64,000 nucleotides of DNA. Origin: Acetobacter papayae JCM 25143. Lineage in GTDB: Bacteria > Pseudomonadota > Alphaproteobacteria > Acetobacterales > Acetobacteraceae. Made by a program: the position numbers and the translations under genes. The DNA lies in the NCBI RefSeq assembly GCF_000613285.1, contig NZ_BAIN01000009.1:1-64000 (forward strand). Direction: 5' to 3'. How positions within the stretch are numbered: the first letter of the stretch is position 1; each line of letters starts with the position of its first letter. This document shows, piece by piece, positions 6,849-18,878 of this stretch. The notes beneath the pieces are model-generated. The model was not told the origin of the DNA. It saw only the letters and a list, made by a program, of their open reading frames with translations, and did not search any database.

Positions 6849-6924
6849 GGGCGCATAGCTCAGTTGGTAGAGCAGCTGACTCTTAATCAGCGGGTCCAAG
6901 GTTCGAGTCCTTGTGCGCCCACCA
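6849..6924 (+). tRNA. tRNA-Lys (anticodon CTT)
   Basis: A 76-nt cloverleaf has acceptor GGGCGCA/TGCGCCC, D-arm AGCTCAGTTGGTAGAGC, anticodon stem GCTGA/TCAGC with loop CTCTTAA (anticodon CTT), T-arm GGTTCGAGTCC and an encoded CCA. The 3' part from 6880 is repeated exactly at 18828, so this tRNA gene is the integration site of the adjacent element. The tRNA remains intact. Confidence 0.97.
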
Positions 6925-6930
6925 ATCTTT
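6880..6930 (+). repeat. attL: 51-bp direct repeat in tRNA-Lys
   Basis: Positions 6880-6930 are identical to 18828-18878. The repeat runs from the anticodon loop of tRNA-Lys through its CCA end and a few bases beyond. This is the classic signature of tyrosine-integrase insertion into a tRNA gene. Confidence 0.93.
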
Positions 6931-6951
6931 TCCTTAGATTTTGGTGGTTTT
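6919..6951 (+). terminator. Terminator of tRNA-Lys (element copy)
   Basis: CCACCAA (6919-6925) pairs with TTGGTGG (6941-6947) and is followed by TTTT. An equivalent hairpin follows the duplicated tRNA end at 18867-18898, so the integrating element brought its own terminator. Confidence 0.6.
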
Positions 6952-6980
6952 AAGGTTTCAGGCTGGCAGGGTGTCCAGCT

Positions 6981-7008
6981 TCCGGAGTCAATCCGGAGTC
7001 ATTTGAAA
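6981..7008 (+). repeat. 28-bp direct repeat, left copy (tandem decamer)
   Basis: A 28-bp sequence made of two tandem TCCGGAGTCA-like decamers plus ATTTGAAA. It is identical to 18678-18705, so one copy lies near each end of the element in the same orientation. It is a candidate arm-type binding site for the integrase or AlpA-like protein. Confidence 0.7.
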
Positions 7009-7397
7009 CCGTTTTTTCTAGATCGCATGGGGCAGGGTTCTTTCCCGCCAGCGGTTCTGTCACCCGAAAAATATGACTGTCTTTCCCCCCGGATCTCTAT
7101 GTGTCTTTTTGTTTCAATTTCGCGGATGCAAAAATTTGGTTATGGCGCGGTCCCGGTGCTCATGCCTGTGAGAGATTAAACACCCCTATCCCTATGGGTG
7201 CCTCCGCTGTTTGAAAAACTTGATTGTTTTCAATTGGCAGAAAAAATCCGCGCGTGAGCCTGATGCGGTTGCGGTGCCCAAGGGCATCCCGACTTTCAGA
7301 TAGCCCCCCACCTACGAGCCTAGGTTAAGATATGCGTTTTACGCATGACCTTGGCCGCGTCACACCTTCCCGTTCTTACCACCCCTACCCCAAAAAA

Positions 7398-7510
7398 GGT
7401 GTATCAGGTGTAACAGGTGTATCACTCTAGATAAGTGACTGATTTACTTATCTAAAAGTGATACACCTTTTTTGTTCTGGCTGTTACACCTGCCGAAAAT
7501 AGGTGTATCA
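7398..7510. repeat. Iteron-like 9-bp repeats, left end
   Basis: Three tandem copies of GGTGTATCA/GGTGTAACA lie at 7398-7424. Inverted copies are at 7459-7467 and 7482-7490, and another direct copy is at 7502-7510. The third copy and the first inverted copy also form a long interrupted palindrome (7416-7436 with 7446-7467) whose inner arms are AGATAAGT/ACTTATCT. The rest of the stretch from 6952 to 7722 has no convincing gene. Such clustered repeats fit a replication origin, an operator or integrase arm sites. Confidence 0.75.
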
Positions 7511-7722
7511 CTTTGAAAGTGAAAATGGCTGTTTTCTGCCATTCATAAGGATATTGCCGCTCTAAACGGCTGGTTTTCCCTGCTTTTAGCCGCTTAAAAT
7601 GCACACTTTTTGTTATGCTTTTGGTGCATGGCTTGGCTTGTTTCAGCCCTCAAATGCTCAAAAATCGGAAAAGAAACCCGCGCGCTGCCCGCGCACCACA
7701 CCACGCATGTCATGGCCACGGC

Positions 7723-8283
7723 TCACGCAGGCTCGATTGCATCCTTGCAGCGATAAACAGAGGCCCGGCTTATACCAAGGCGGCTGGCAATCTCAGCGGC
7801 GCTCATACCCTGCTCCATAAGTGCCTGCACTTCTGTAGCCTGATTGCGGGCTGTGGGCTTGCGCCCTTTATAACGTCCGTCCGCCTTAGCCTTGGCTATG
7901 CCTTCCATCTGGCGTTCCCGGCGGAGGTTTGTCTCAAACTCAGCAAATACGCCCAGCATATCCAGAAAGGCTTTGCCTGCTGCTGTGCTGGTGTCCACGG
8001 GCTGTTCTGTGCAGCGCAAGGCCGCACCCTTTGCCTTGAGTTCCATCATAATGGTTTGAAGGTCAGCAATGGAGCGGGCCAGCCGGTCTATGCGTGTGAC
8101 GACCAGCACATCGCCCCGCTGGAGGAAGGCAAGCAGGGTTTGCAGTTCTTTCCTGCCACTGGTGCTCGACCCTGAAACTTTTTCGGAGCGAATGACGGTG
8201 CACCCGGCTGCGGCAAGGGTCTGCTCTTGAATGGTCAGGTCTTGGTCAGTCGTACTGACTCGCGCATATCCATAAATGGTCAT
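7723..8283 (-). CDS. Serine recombinase (resolvase/invertase family)
   Basis: This 186-residue protein is a small serine recombinase. The N-terminal catalytic domain has YARVSTTDQ with the nucleophilic serine near residue 9, then VSGSSTSGRKELQTLL, DVLVVTRIDRLARS (active-site arginines) and FAEFETNLRRERQ. A short C-terminal helix-turn-helix follows (GMSAAEIASRLGISRASVYR). The start is placed at 8283 (MTIYGYARVS), which matches the family; the frame extends 7 codons further upstream. Such enzymes resolve plasmid dimers or invert DNA. Here, in an element with primase/helicase genes, multimer resolution of an excised circle is plausible. It is the leftmost gene of the element, downstream of the DUF927 gene on the same strand. 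Confidence 0.9.
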   Translation of the reverse strand: MTIYGYARVSTTDQDLTIQEQTLAAAGCTVIRSEKVSGSSTSGRKELQTLLAFLQRGDVLVVTRIDRLARSIADLQTIMMELKAKGAALRCTEQPVDTSTAAGKAFLDMLGVFAEFETNLRRERQMEGIAKAKADGRYKGRKPTARNQATEVQALMEQGMSAAEIASRLGISRASVYRCKDAIEPA

Positions 8284-8297
8284 TTCGCGTCTCGTTT

Positions 8298-8362
8298 GTC
8301 TCAATAGGGTTTAGACTTTCTCTTTTGTCTGTCTCAAAATTAAAAATCAACCTATTTGAGAC
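8298..8362. promoter_or_regulatory. Candidate res site or operator of the serine recombinase
   Basis: GTCTCAATAGG (8298-8308) and CCTATTTGAGAC (8351-8362) form an inverted pair just upstream of the recombinase. Further GTCTC/TGTCTCA elements lie between and after them, to about 8405. Resolvases usually bind such sites next to their own gene. No experimental basis is available. Confidence 0.4.
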
Positions 8363-17015: not shown

Positions 17016-17104
17016 TTTCGATGACACAACTCAGAGCGAGTACATACTAAGTCCAAGCACCTAGCCGCAGAGCTATGACAAGCTTATGTGCAACATAGAT
17101 TATA

Positions 17105-17139
17105 GAAGGGCACCCTTTCTTACACGGAGGGGGCCCTTC
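17105..17139. terminator. Terminator between membrane gene and integrase
   Basis: GAAGGGC (17105-17111) pairs with GCCCTTC (17133-17139), followed by GTTCTTT. It lies between the rightward cargo gene and the convergent integrase and could serve both. Confidence 0.6.
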
Positions 17140-17144
17140 GTTCT

Positions 17145-18479
17145 TTATTGTCTCAACACCACCACATTCCCTGCCGTGGGTTCGGTTTCCACTCCGGAAG
17201 CCACATCCAACACATGCCCGGCCCACGCATCCAGCGCCGCCGCCCGCTCTGTCAGGAACTCATGGCGCTGGTAAACGGCTGCAACGCCTTTAATGGCGCC
17301 TTCCGTATGGTTCAGCACTCTATCGGCCACATGGGGGCCAATCCCTAACCGGGCCATTACTGTCACTCCCGTGCGGCGGAGGTCATGCAACCGCCACCCC
17401 ACCGTAGCTTGCAGGGTGGAGGGGCTTTTTTCCCGCTTTTTTTTGCCCACCGGTGGCCTGCTCGGCTCTTTCACGCATAATCAGAGCTTCCAGCCGTGCC
17501 ACGGCAGCCGAGAAGCCGGAAATGGGCGTTTTGCCCGTGCAGGTAAACACCAAGGGCGATATGGCCCCGGTCTTTGGGTCGGTCTGCCGGTGTAGCCCTG
17601 CCAGCACATGCCGGGCCGGTTCGGACAGGTGGACAATATGGCTTTGCCGTTCTTGGCGCGCTCGGCCGGAATGGTCCAGGTTGAAAGGTCGGGGGTTATC
17701 TCGCCCCATTGCATCCCCGCCACCTCATTCCTGCGCTGGAGGGTTAATGCCAGCAGGCGAAAGAACGGGCCGAACGGGTAAGGTAGCAGGCCGGAAGCCC
17801 GCCAGAACTCCCCCAGTTCTGCATCGGACAACACCCGGTCGCGGGAGACTTCGCGGCCTTCCACAATCGCGGCAGAGAACGGGTTGTCTGGCACCAGCCC
17901 GCGTTTGACTGCCCAGCCATACATGGCGCGGCCATAGGCATGGAGTCGGCGGGCTGTGGTCGGGTGGTCCTCGGCTATTTCATCCAACCGGGCCTGCACC
18001 TCCGCTTGCGTAATGGCGTGGGCTGCACGGTCAAGCAGGTGGGGCAGGGCATAGCGTATGCGCTGTGGGGCATCGCGCCGGTAGCTGGCCGCCCGGTCAC
18101 GCAATGCCCCGGCAAGCCAGCGGTCTATCAGCACATCCAGCGTTAAGGCATTGGCGGCAGCTTGTGCGGCCTGCTCGGCCACCTGCGCCTGATATTCCTG
18201 CACCTGTGCCTTTTTATCGCCAGCAGGGTCTCCGCCCGCCATAACGCGGCCCCGTGCGGCTTCGGCCAGCTTGCGGGCCTGTGCCAGTGTTAAGGCTCCA
18301 TACTGCCCCAGCACCAGCCGTTTGGGCTTACCGGCAAAGCGGTAGTTGAACAGGAAAGTCTTGGTGCCGGTGGCATTTACCCGCACGGCAAAGCCTTTCA
18401 CCTCACTATCGGTAAACATCACGTCCCGCTTATCCGGCGGGCAGGTGAGGGCGTCTATTCCCGATTTTGTCAGCTTCAT
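17145..18479 (-). CDS. int: Tyrosine integrase, P4 type (two frameshifts as read)
   Basis: This site-specific recombinase of about 444 residues is presumably responsible for insertion at tRNA-Lys. It has the N-terminal DUF4102 arm-binding domain (SEVKGFAVRVNATGTKTFLF, YGALTLAQARKLAEAA), a SAM-like core-binding domain and the catalytic domain. The catalytic domain shows the first Arg in LTLQRRNEVAGMQW, the HDLRRT box and the tyrosine in AVYQRHEF. The frame breaks at about 17640 (one base missing) and at the T8 tract 17437-17444 (one base extra); both sides match the family perfectly. The start MKLTKSG at 18479 suits the family. Either both are sequencing errors or the element is locked in place. 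Confidence 0.88.
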
Positions 18480-18506
18480 GCGGCCCCTCCGGGGCATCTG
18501 TCACAC

Positions 18507-18627
18507 CTGATACACCTCACGAACTGGTGAGGTGTATCAGTCTGAGAGCCAAAAAACCTAATGAAATCAATATAATATATATGAGTGTTACACCTGATAC
18601 ACCTATTACACCGCATTTGGTGTAACC
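18507..18627. repeat. Iteron-like 9-bp repeats, right end
   Basis: A perfect 14-bp inverted repeat (18507-18520 with 18527-18540) contains TGATACACC/GGTGTATCA. Then tandem TGTTACACC, TGATACACC and TATTACACC lie at 18586-18612, and an inverted GGTGTAACC at 18619-18627. These are the same 9-bp units as at 7398-7510. They occupy the region upstream of int, where they could also control its expression. No gene is seen from 18498 to 18827. Confidence 0.75.
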
Positions 18628-18677
18628 CGGCCCGAATTTTTGGCACCTGTCCCCTCCTGCACCCGCTGATGCCGTTT

Positions 18678-18705
18678 TCCGGAGTCAATCCGGAGTCATT
18701 TGAAA
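18678..18705 (+). repeat. 28-bp direct repeat, right copy (tandem decamer)
   Basis: Identical to 6981-7008 and in the same orientation, 123 bp before attR. See the left copy for composition and possible role. Confidence 0.7.
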
Positions 18706-18827
18706 AGGTAATCCGTGTGGCTCGTTGCGTCACGTTGCATGATCGCTTTTTTAAGACCCGCAAAAGACTGCCATTTTTTCGTCTCCTTGCGGCTCCCTGC
18801 GTCTTAACTGTATCTAGGGTTCTGTGT

Positions 18828-18878
18828 CTCTTAATCAGCGGGTCCAAGGTTCGAGTCCTTGTGCGCCCACCAATCTTT
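18828..18878 (+). repeat. attR: 51-bp direct repeat (tRNA-Lys 3' fragment)
   Basis: Exact copy of 6880-6930. It lacks the 5' half of the tRNA and is not a functional gene; it is the original chromosomal 3' end displaced by the insertion. Confidence 0.93.

Follow-up and report, generated by a model that had tools for sequence, protein, structure and literature searches.

Introduction

Well-studied phage satellites stem from the Enterobacterales, from Vibrio and from Gram-positive cocci. The described systems closest to the locus considered here are the phage-inducible chromosomal islands (PICIs) and the Staphylococcus aureus pathogenicity islands (SaPIs), the P4-type satellites, the phage-inducible chromosomal minimalist islands (PICMIs) and the staphylococcal cassette chromosomes (SCCs), which are driven by serine recombinases. 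Capsid-forming PICIs (cf-PICIs) are defined by capsid genes of their own. Some PICIs carry the cos site of their helper phage, as parts of one report describe (PMC6092414). For acetic acid bacteria, no description of a satellite was found in searches of open-access literature directed at this group or at Alphaproteobacteria, a scope that leaves subscription papers and bioRxiv largely outside. In this study we analysed a stretch of 64,000 nucleotides (the window) from Acetobacter papayae JCM 25143, taken from the 71-kb contig NZ_BAIN01000009.1, and focused on an element of about 12.0 kb inserted at a tRNA-Lys gene. This element is very probably an integrated phage satellite, a reading for which comparison between genomes provides the boundaries, arms, iterons, a box and its position next to terminase genes, cargo turnover and exchange between species. 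The initial annotation had proposed a satellite-like element at a tRNA gene, and this is now backed by a box shared with prophages, iterons of origin type, attP arms, presence and absence among relatives, and a variable cargo slot that is in part defence-like.

Boundaries and attachment arms

The sites on which the argument depends are as follows.

6849 to 6924, + strand: tRNA-Lys (CTT), the integration target (ARAGORN)
6877 to 6930, + strand: attL-type repeat, perfect over 51 bp from 6880, pairing with 18825 to 18878
6982 to 7008, + strand: left integrase arm-type repeat, CCGGAGTCA-AT-CCGGAGTCATTTGAAA (two matches in the window, none in shuffles)
7210 to 7278, + strand: candidate cos-like packaging box, core about 7240 to 7272, matching prophage packaging loci
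7397 to 7510: left iteron cluster, six AGGTGTA(T/A)CA, probable replication origin
18508 to 18604: right iteron cluster, upstream of int
18679 to 18705, + strand: right integrase arm-type repeat
18825 to 18878, + strand: attR-type repeat, pairing with 6877 to 6930

The att repeat runs over 54 bp at 98% identity, its last 51 bp being perfect (6880 to 6930 and 18828 to 18878), and it corresponds to the 3' part of the tRNA-Lys gene. Repeat comparison and tRNA prediction together uphold the 12-kb unit originally delimited by this perfect repeat. A 31-bp att core occurs at two sites only in the host assembly (a 3.04-Mb draft of 177 contigs, 87% complete), and these are the two ends of the element. 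The arm repeats share one orientation, the left one being 51 bp inward from attL and the right one 119 bp short of attR. All nine complete elements of the genus have repeats of this kind close to each att site, the left copy of G213 having one unit altered, and we take the paired end repeats to be arm sites of the integrase.

Distribution and movement between species

Among 49 genomes of the genus, elements with an att pair at tRNA-Lys were found in the window genome and in eight others, with primases at least 74% identical. In G240 the element is split between two contig ends, one with the tRNA side and the box, the other with the right half, and the primase was not found in the assembly; with this split copy the carriers at tRNA-Lys number ten. 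In the other 39 genomes no element protein was found at tRNA-Lys within the stretch compared, apart from an integrase remnant in G226, which also keeps a partial box. This downstream stretch was compared in the 48 other genomes over about 5 kb or less and was in some cases ended by a contig end. In G244 the gene of the right flank follows the tRNA after about 0.6 kb. Within the stretch compared, 39 of the 49 genomes thus have no such element at tRNA-Lys, and the outcome that the initial annotation named as refuting, the same genes in all relatives without att repeats, did not arise.

The same gene set at another tRNA gene was found among 12 further loci that were compared: G079 has it at tRNA-Thr with a 60-bp att, and G140 has a similar set at tRNA-Thr with a 46-bp att. 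Others of these loci lie by tRNA-Ala, tRNA-Thr or tRNA-Lys, with no att pair found. Distant primases (about 65% identity) occur at other places in G205, G206 and G232, so that some non-carriers hold related elements elsewhere. Two apparently mirror copies of one tRNA-Thr element stand on a single contig of G206 (L154 and L155, C82); this genome is 9% contaminated and the mirror copies may be an artefact of assembly. A different insertion of 2.6 kb (L107, G205:C18, 268 to 3011) occupies the same tRNA-Lys with a perfect 51-bp att and carries open reading frames (ORFs) of 354, 136 and 304 aa.

Between the window and G219, G210 and G213 the element DNA is 90-92% identical and the parB flank 75-77%. 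On this comparison the element has moved between species, because it is so much closer than its own flank. In a tblastn search of a phage collection the primase matched 99 records, all below 60% identity and two of them covering 80%; in viral contigs there were six matching loci, the best at 52% identity. A plasmid origin was considered and set aside: 16 plasmid records matched, none covering 80%, and the matches shown were tRNA and att ends.

A box shared with prophage packaging loci

When the elements were compared with the prophage stretches of their carriers, one non-genic match recurred, at window 7220 to 7278. The box, of about 60 bp, is present in all nine complete elements, where the order is arm, box, iterons and the distance from box to first iteron is 153-156 bp in every case. 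The window copy matches the G222 prophage at 86% over 59 bp, and the element of G222 itself matches the same prophage at 83% over 70 bp. It scores 71.6 bits, and the highest value reached in 100 block shuffles was 31.9. A search of the genus with window 7205 to 7290 gave matches at E<=0.01 in 18 of the 49 genomes; we set aside as probable chance those with E 0.004-0.006 (G220, G212, G213:C2) and that of G227:C207 (E 5e-4, inside a long ORF). The G224 box was missed in this search and found by pattern, and the copy in the G203 prophage comes from the comparison of elements with prophages only.

Besides the tRNA-Lys elements and the G226 remnant, box matches lie in prophages of G222, G215, G229:C94, G217:C38 and G232. 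In G222, G215 and G229:C94 the box is followed by the gene for the small terminase subunit, TerS (99-104 aa, weak phrog_641), then by that for the large subunit, TerL (phrog_9). Next come a gene of 441 aa, which is a portal gene in the single case scanned, one of 276-284 aa and the HK97 capsid. The longest ORF over the TerS position in G217 crosses the box, TerL and the 441-aa gene coming next, while in G232 TerL follows the box and the contig ends soon beyond. The distance from the box to the TerS gene downstream is 12-21 bp in L162, L212 and L213, and that to TerL is 319-330 bp in L211 and L219. An HNH gene stands 146-147 bp from it, on the side away from the terminase, in all three cases tested, which gives a best-case prophage order of HNH, box, TerS, TerL. 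HNH-cos-terS is the usual setting of cos in HK97-type phages, and we read the shared box as a candidate cos packaging site.

Further copies of the box were found outside tRNA-Lys elements and recognised prophages. The locus in G237 (L214, G237:C1:1746000-1762000) has an integrase overlapping tRNA-Asn, an AlpA-like gene, portal, protease and HK97-type capsid genes, together with XRE and Tat-like homologues and a primase; no terminase was found among the ORFs scanned. By its gene content it appears to be a satellite-like element that encodes a capsid. The copies in G234:C74 (L215), G229:C98 (L217) and G217:C24 (L216) each have a serine recombinase homologue nearby (in two pieces in G229), and two of the three adjoin tRNA-Ala; these loci are possibly other satellites with different cores.

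A second link with prophages involves the small proteins with a Tat-like signal listed below. The copy B family has homologues beyond the elements too, and those that were checked adjoin antirepressor genes; in all four cases scanned the downstream neighbours are antirepressors or related regulators. In the G203 prophage such a pair of Tat-like gene and regulator lies just behind TerL and a 434-aa gene. A helper of P2 type was rejected, as the P2 capsid family occurs in none of the 49 genomes.

Iterons and the probable origin

AGGTGTAWCA has 11 exact sites in the 64 kb, ten of them in two clusters at the ends of the element, where 0.02 would be expected in the whole window; the repeat clusters reported originally are real. 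Both clusters stand at the same places in all nine complete elements. In their variable bases the two ends of one element resemble each other more closely than they resemble those of other elements (permutation P 0.0027, n=9; G240, whose left end is missing, was left out). Iteron similarity tracks that of the DUF927 protein best (Mantel 0.85, P 0.0005), followed by Int (0.74), Toprim (0.67), the serine recombinase (0.47, P 0.0005) and TatB, the Tat-like copy B (0.45, P 0.06); two distant elements were added for these tests, and the values are not corrected for relatedness. The left cluster, in which sets of iterons flank a 34-bp AT-rich stretch, is likely to be the replication origin, because of this stretch, because the iterons track DUF927 and because SaPI and PICI origins with iterons have been placed just 3' of rep, according to parts of PMC7581432 and PMC6092414.

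Other proteins were considered as readers of the iterons. AlpA, XRE and orf202 gave no significant correlation with iteron similarity, and the serine recombinase was rejected as reader, since clusters also occur in L008, L152-L155 and L158 with no such gene found nearby. Neither an iteron cluster nor a serine recombinase was found in L160. Relatives at other integration sites have a different repeat of GGTGT type on the tRNA side of the helicase gene; none was apparent in L160 and L156, and L153 is without a second cluster. DnaA-like boxes occur once each in two of the ten elements. In L162, which is a prophage, and in L163, 6-7 copies of other short repeats (7441 to 7628 and 12532 to 12748, respectively) lie directly behind the gene that follows a primase relative, and these are possible iteron origins of the same logic.

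Backbone genes

The genes of the element, with the cargo slot between the XRE repressor and the integrase, are listed in order.

7723 to 8304, - strand: serine recombinase, resolvase/invertase type (PF00239, 4e-41)
8667 to 10508, - strand: DUF927 replicative helicase or Rep-like initiator (PF06048, 2.7e-78), C-terminus frameshifted
10402 to 11520, - strand: Toprim primase (DUF7146 and Toprim_3 profiles; phrog_510)
11450 to 12058, - strand: orf202, helical protein (no family over cut-off; model pLDDT 74.6)
12055 to 12867, - strand: Bro-N/KilAC antirepressor (PF02498, PF03374; phrog_130)
12801 to 13058, - strand: AlpA/excisionase-like helix-turn-helix (HTH) protein (HTH_17 5e-5, below cut-off; phrog_66 4.4e-7)
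13096 to 13776, - strand: orf226, replaced by other ORFs in several relatives
13818 to 14243, - strand: small protein with a Tat-like signal (by eye), copy A
14240 to 14686, - strand: small protein with a Tat-like signal (by eye), copy B (model pLDDT 77.7)
14683 to 14928, - strand: orf81 (tblastn matches in the eight other complete elements and G240)
15069 to 15290, + strand: XRE-type repressor, divergent from the main operon (PF13560, 8.5e-8)
15358 to 15810, + strand: cargo slot, 150-aa ORF of low GC, hydrophobic by eye (no Pfam or NCBIfam family)
15862 to 16168: degraded second TatB-orf81-XRE backbone copy inside the cargo slot (89.9% over 129 bp to the element's own XRE segment)
16191 to 17015, + strand: cargo slot, 274-aa ORF of low GC, membrane-like by eye, candidate defence gene
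17145 to 18497, - strand: tyrosine integrase with arm-binding domain, in three frame pieces (PF13356, PF22022; PF00589 weak in the pieces)

Transcription is on the + strand for XRE and cargo and on the - strand for the remaining genes. Profiles agree with the genes named in the initial annotation (serine recombinase, DUF927, Toprim primase, Bro-N, XRE, tyrosine integrase). Its AlpA-like regulator is supported by phrog_66 at 4.4e-7, while both HTH_17 and the AlpA model (PF05930, E 0.054) fall below the Pfam cut-off; blastp to P4 Vis gives 6e-4. The statement that virion and transfer genes are missing also stands, inasmuch as no structural or transfer family was over cut-off in the window ORFs scanned (not each ORF against each library). 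This includes capsid, portal and protease families, and no structural gene was recognised within the boundaries of the relatives by similarity or, for selected ORFs, by profiles.

PDB structures that match the DUF927 protein include 5dgk ('Active helicase') and 8tch ('Pathogenicity island protein'). Two sub-threshold matches may be mentioned. The primase matches the primase-like end of TraI at 6e-31, with a score of 107 bits where the cut-off is 930, and the HTH of the serine recombinase matches Terminase_5 (0.025). The models of orf202 (5 sequences) and of the Tat-like protein (11 sequences) had no PDB match at E<=0.001. The copy A family of Tat-like proteins has one or two members in each of the eight other complete elements.

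The integrase and DUF927 genes are broken in the window copy. DUF927 similarity carries on to about 8506 in another frame, and the protein is a single frame of 667 aa in G219, G210 and G213. The integrase is a single frame in six of the ten carriers (G210, G213, G211, G203, G222, G224); the other four, namely the window, G219, G227 and G240, have it broken. The two differences in the window integrase are one-base length changes in homopolymers. Four of 24 comparable flank genes (from 47 G226 ORFs gathered) are frame-broken in the window relative to G226, against one of 22 in the reverse direction, although two of the four are only 69-81% identical and could be real differences. The intact integrase in six carriers, the homopolymer changes and the broken flank genes make sequencing error a more likely cause than decay, and the two frameshifts are probably for the most part of this kind. 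One of the four broken flank genes is that just before parB, at the position of ParA (window 5043 to 5824); its frame changes relative to G226 although the protein is 98-99% identical, which points to assembly errors in the draft. Just beyond attR, a small ORF of 91 aa (window 19289 to 19432) contains a tandem 72-bp repeat and has homologues in G210, G226, G240 and G244.

An exchangeable cargo slot

The contents of the slot between XRE and the end of the integrase mostly differ among carriers, the exceptions being a 314-aa gene shared by G222 and G227 and RhuM in G213 and G224. PADLOC, applied to ten cargo proteins, gave three strong matches (RhuM as PDC-S05, PDC-S42 and a capP-like M78 peptidase) and two weak ones (E 2-3e-4). 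Further families recognised with Pfam are a PemK-like toxin, DUF6731, DUF4236 and, below threshold, HEPN_Apea. The slot thus appears to be exchangeable, with turnover seen by comparison, and partly defence-like, a role that may be suggested from these families. The immunity genes of the initial annotation were not borne out for the window copy, as the scans recognised no known immunity gene in its own cargo. The 274-aa ORF has no family over cut-off and no PDB relative, and matched weakly in three other genomes when 385 genomes of the class were searched. The degraded second copy of TatB-orf81-XRE separates the two cargo ORFs, which suggests that cargo is exchanged by recombination between elements.

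Weighing the satellite reading

Several observations weigh against a satellite packaged by HK97-type helpers. The window genome, an incomplete draft, contains no HK97 capsid, TerL_ATPase, P2 capsid or second box, and the link to resident prophages supposed in the initial annotation is therefore not visible in this strain. HK97 capsid genes are not clearly commoner in carriers (four of ten) than in non-carriers (13 of 39), and of the 21 HK97 capsid loci found in the genus only five have a box match nearby, one of them (G237) being itself satellite-like. A scan of 25 other loci, among them ten distant element loci and prophage stretches of G228, G224 and G213, gave no match to the box core with fewer than seven mismatches. 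For another genus, the corresponding region of the G079 element was compared with its own genome alone and matched only the element itself, so that no shared site of packaging type was found there. Genes for capsid size, TerS or derepression were not recognised in the element, its integrase is broken in the assembly, and five of the ten cargo proteins, those of the window included, had no defence match in PADLOC.

The box might alternatively be a promoter or regulator site of phage late genes, by which the satellite senses its helper while being packaged otherwise or not at all. It does lie just upstream of terS, where a late promoter could sit, and by its geometry leftward transcription from the box in an excised circle would cross att towards int. 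We nevertheless consider this unlikely, as the box falls between HNH and terminase genes, it has one orientation with respect to TerL in L162, L211, L212, L213 and L219, and in the integrated element the stretch from att to the serine recombinase holds no recognised conserved ORF that it could drive. Less probable still is a phage-independent integrative element or integrating plasmid, replicated from its iterons and spread by transformation or by riding on conjugation, with the box as an incidental phage relic. A Rep helicase with iterons would also fit elements of SCC type, as parts of PMC7581432 indicate, no helper was seen in the window strain, and the primase has its sub-threshold match to TraI. 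Against this, no transfer gene was over cut-off, the Tat-like and antirepressor genes are shared with prophage-like loci, and the distance from box to iterons is fixed in nine of nine elements, yet in five of these the aligned DNA is only 72-75% identical to the window. A prophage that lost its structural genes by chance, disfavoured already, is the least credible of all: the integrase and DUF927 are frame-broken in the window copy, but so are flanking genes, and nine complete elements have a similar compact gene order in which no structural genes were recognised, six of them with the integrase in a single frame.

An integrated phage satellite would work as follows. The tyrosine integrase would insert the element at tRNA-Lys by way of the paired arm repeats that flank the core. 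Excision would give a circle with the order int, iterons, arm, att, arm, cos-like box, iterons, serine recombinase, helicase gene. On this circle the DUF927 helicase, of the SaPI Rep or SCC Cch type, and the Toprim primase could start replication at the 9-bp iterons behind the helicase gene, and the serine recombinase might resolve multimers. The terminase of a helper would package satellite DNA into helper particles through the box shared with HK97 prophages. The XRE, AlpA-like and Bro-N proteins may control induction, presumably by the helper, and the slot between XRE and int would carry exchangeable, partly defence-like cargo.

It is an evenly balanced question whether Acetobacter holds a wider packaging guild, in which HK97-type phages, capsid-less satellites and the capsid-encoding satellite of G237 have one common cos-like box. 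One box on all members would mean that several parasites compete for one terminase. The chances are similarly even that the guild comprises a capsid-less PICI/P4-hybrid family at tRNA-Lys, perhaps also at tRNA-Ala, and the G237 element at tRNA-Asn. The family offers a candidate packaging signal, helper type, replication origin and cargo slot, all testable in vinegar bacteria that are easily grown. If the satellite reading is true, cos-sharing satellites with exchangeable cargo extend to the Acetobacteraceae, and candidate new defence genes are indicated, such as that for the membrane-like 274-aa protein of the window.

Comparison with known satellites

Like PICIs and SaPIs, the element has an integrase with a specific att site, an AlpA-like gene and no structural genes recognised. 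The PICI trait of primase and rep followed by an iteron origin is present by sequence, with the serine recombinase gene in between; as in PICIs and SaPIs, primase precedes Rep helicase, the origin would lie 3' of rep, and iteron sets surround an AT-rich stretch. The DUF927 protein resembles both a solved pathogenicity-island protein and the SCC helicase. It differs from PICIs and SaPIs in the split Toprim primase, the second iteron cluster beside int, the serine recombinase and the Bro-N and Tat-like genes. Gram-negative PICIs are transcribed one way in the account given in parts of PMC6092414, whereas here XRE and cargo face the main operon.

The order int, arms, attP, arms, iteron block and primase/helicase is that of the P4 record. 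The tandem arm repeats of P4 are 112 and 53 bp from the attP core; in the present element the distances to the att repeat are 119 and 51 bp. The gaps between iterons are 9/43/18/14 in P4 crr and 9/44/23/19 here, an agreement reached with a frequency of 1e-4 in a Monte Carlo test that assumes uniform placement and accepts either overall strand. The layouts are alike and not identical, since every iteron has the strand opposite to that in P4 crr. The integrase matches P4 int (blastp 5e-10), and the cargo slot beside it resembles the P4 defence hotspot as parts of PMC9122126 describe it. In contrast to P4, the serine recombinase stands between iterons and helicase, and the cos-like box is beside attP and not by the cargo slot. 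P4 psu, delta, sid and epsilon gave no tblastn match better than E 0.3 in ten elements and were not among the Pfam results for the window ORFs given; sid was searched only as the P4 protein by tblastn, whereas a custom sid profile was used according to parts of PMC8628076. P4 alpha (PF03288) had a best tblastn E of 0.71 in the ten elements, and blastp of the primase to alpha gave E 0.01; its place is taken by the Toprim primase and a DUF927 helicase like the Rep of SaPIs and SCCs. Published P4-like sets lack at most two of seven components, by the definition in parts of PMC8628076. The suggestion of a P4-type satellite therefore holds for attP and replication layout and fails for the gene set. 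The element is neither a P4-like satellite as published, because sid, psu, delta and epsilon were not found, nor a textbook PICI.

With PICMIs it shares a minimal satellite plan of int, alpA and primase without capsid genes; the fis site, the six genes of the prototype and the DUF3987/DUF5906 primase reported in parts of PMC10803314 have no counterpart here. It is distinguished from cf-PICIs by the lack of capsid, portal and protease families in the window proteins scanned. SCCs have a helicase of the same DUF927 family (Cch), with an iteron-type origin for the relative Cch2 according to parts of PMC7581432, but the tRNA target and the cos-like box belong to the present element only. The satellite family would work like PICIs and P4 satellites, and the full published definition of neither applies to it. 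If the guild exists, the capsid-less elements would form a separate lineage, in which a replicon with a Rep of SaPI type has been joined to an attP of P4 type and a defence slot.

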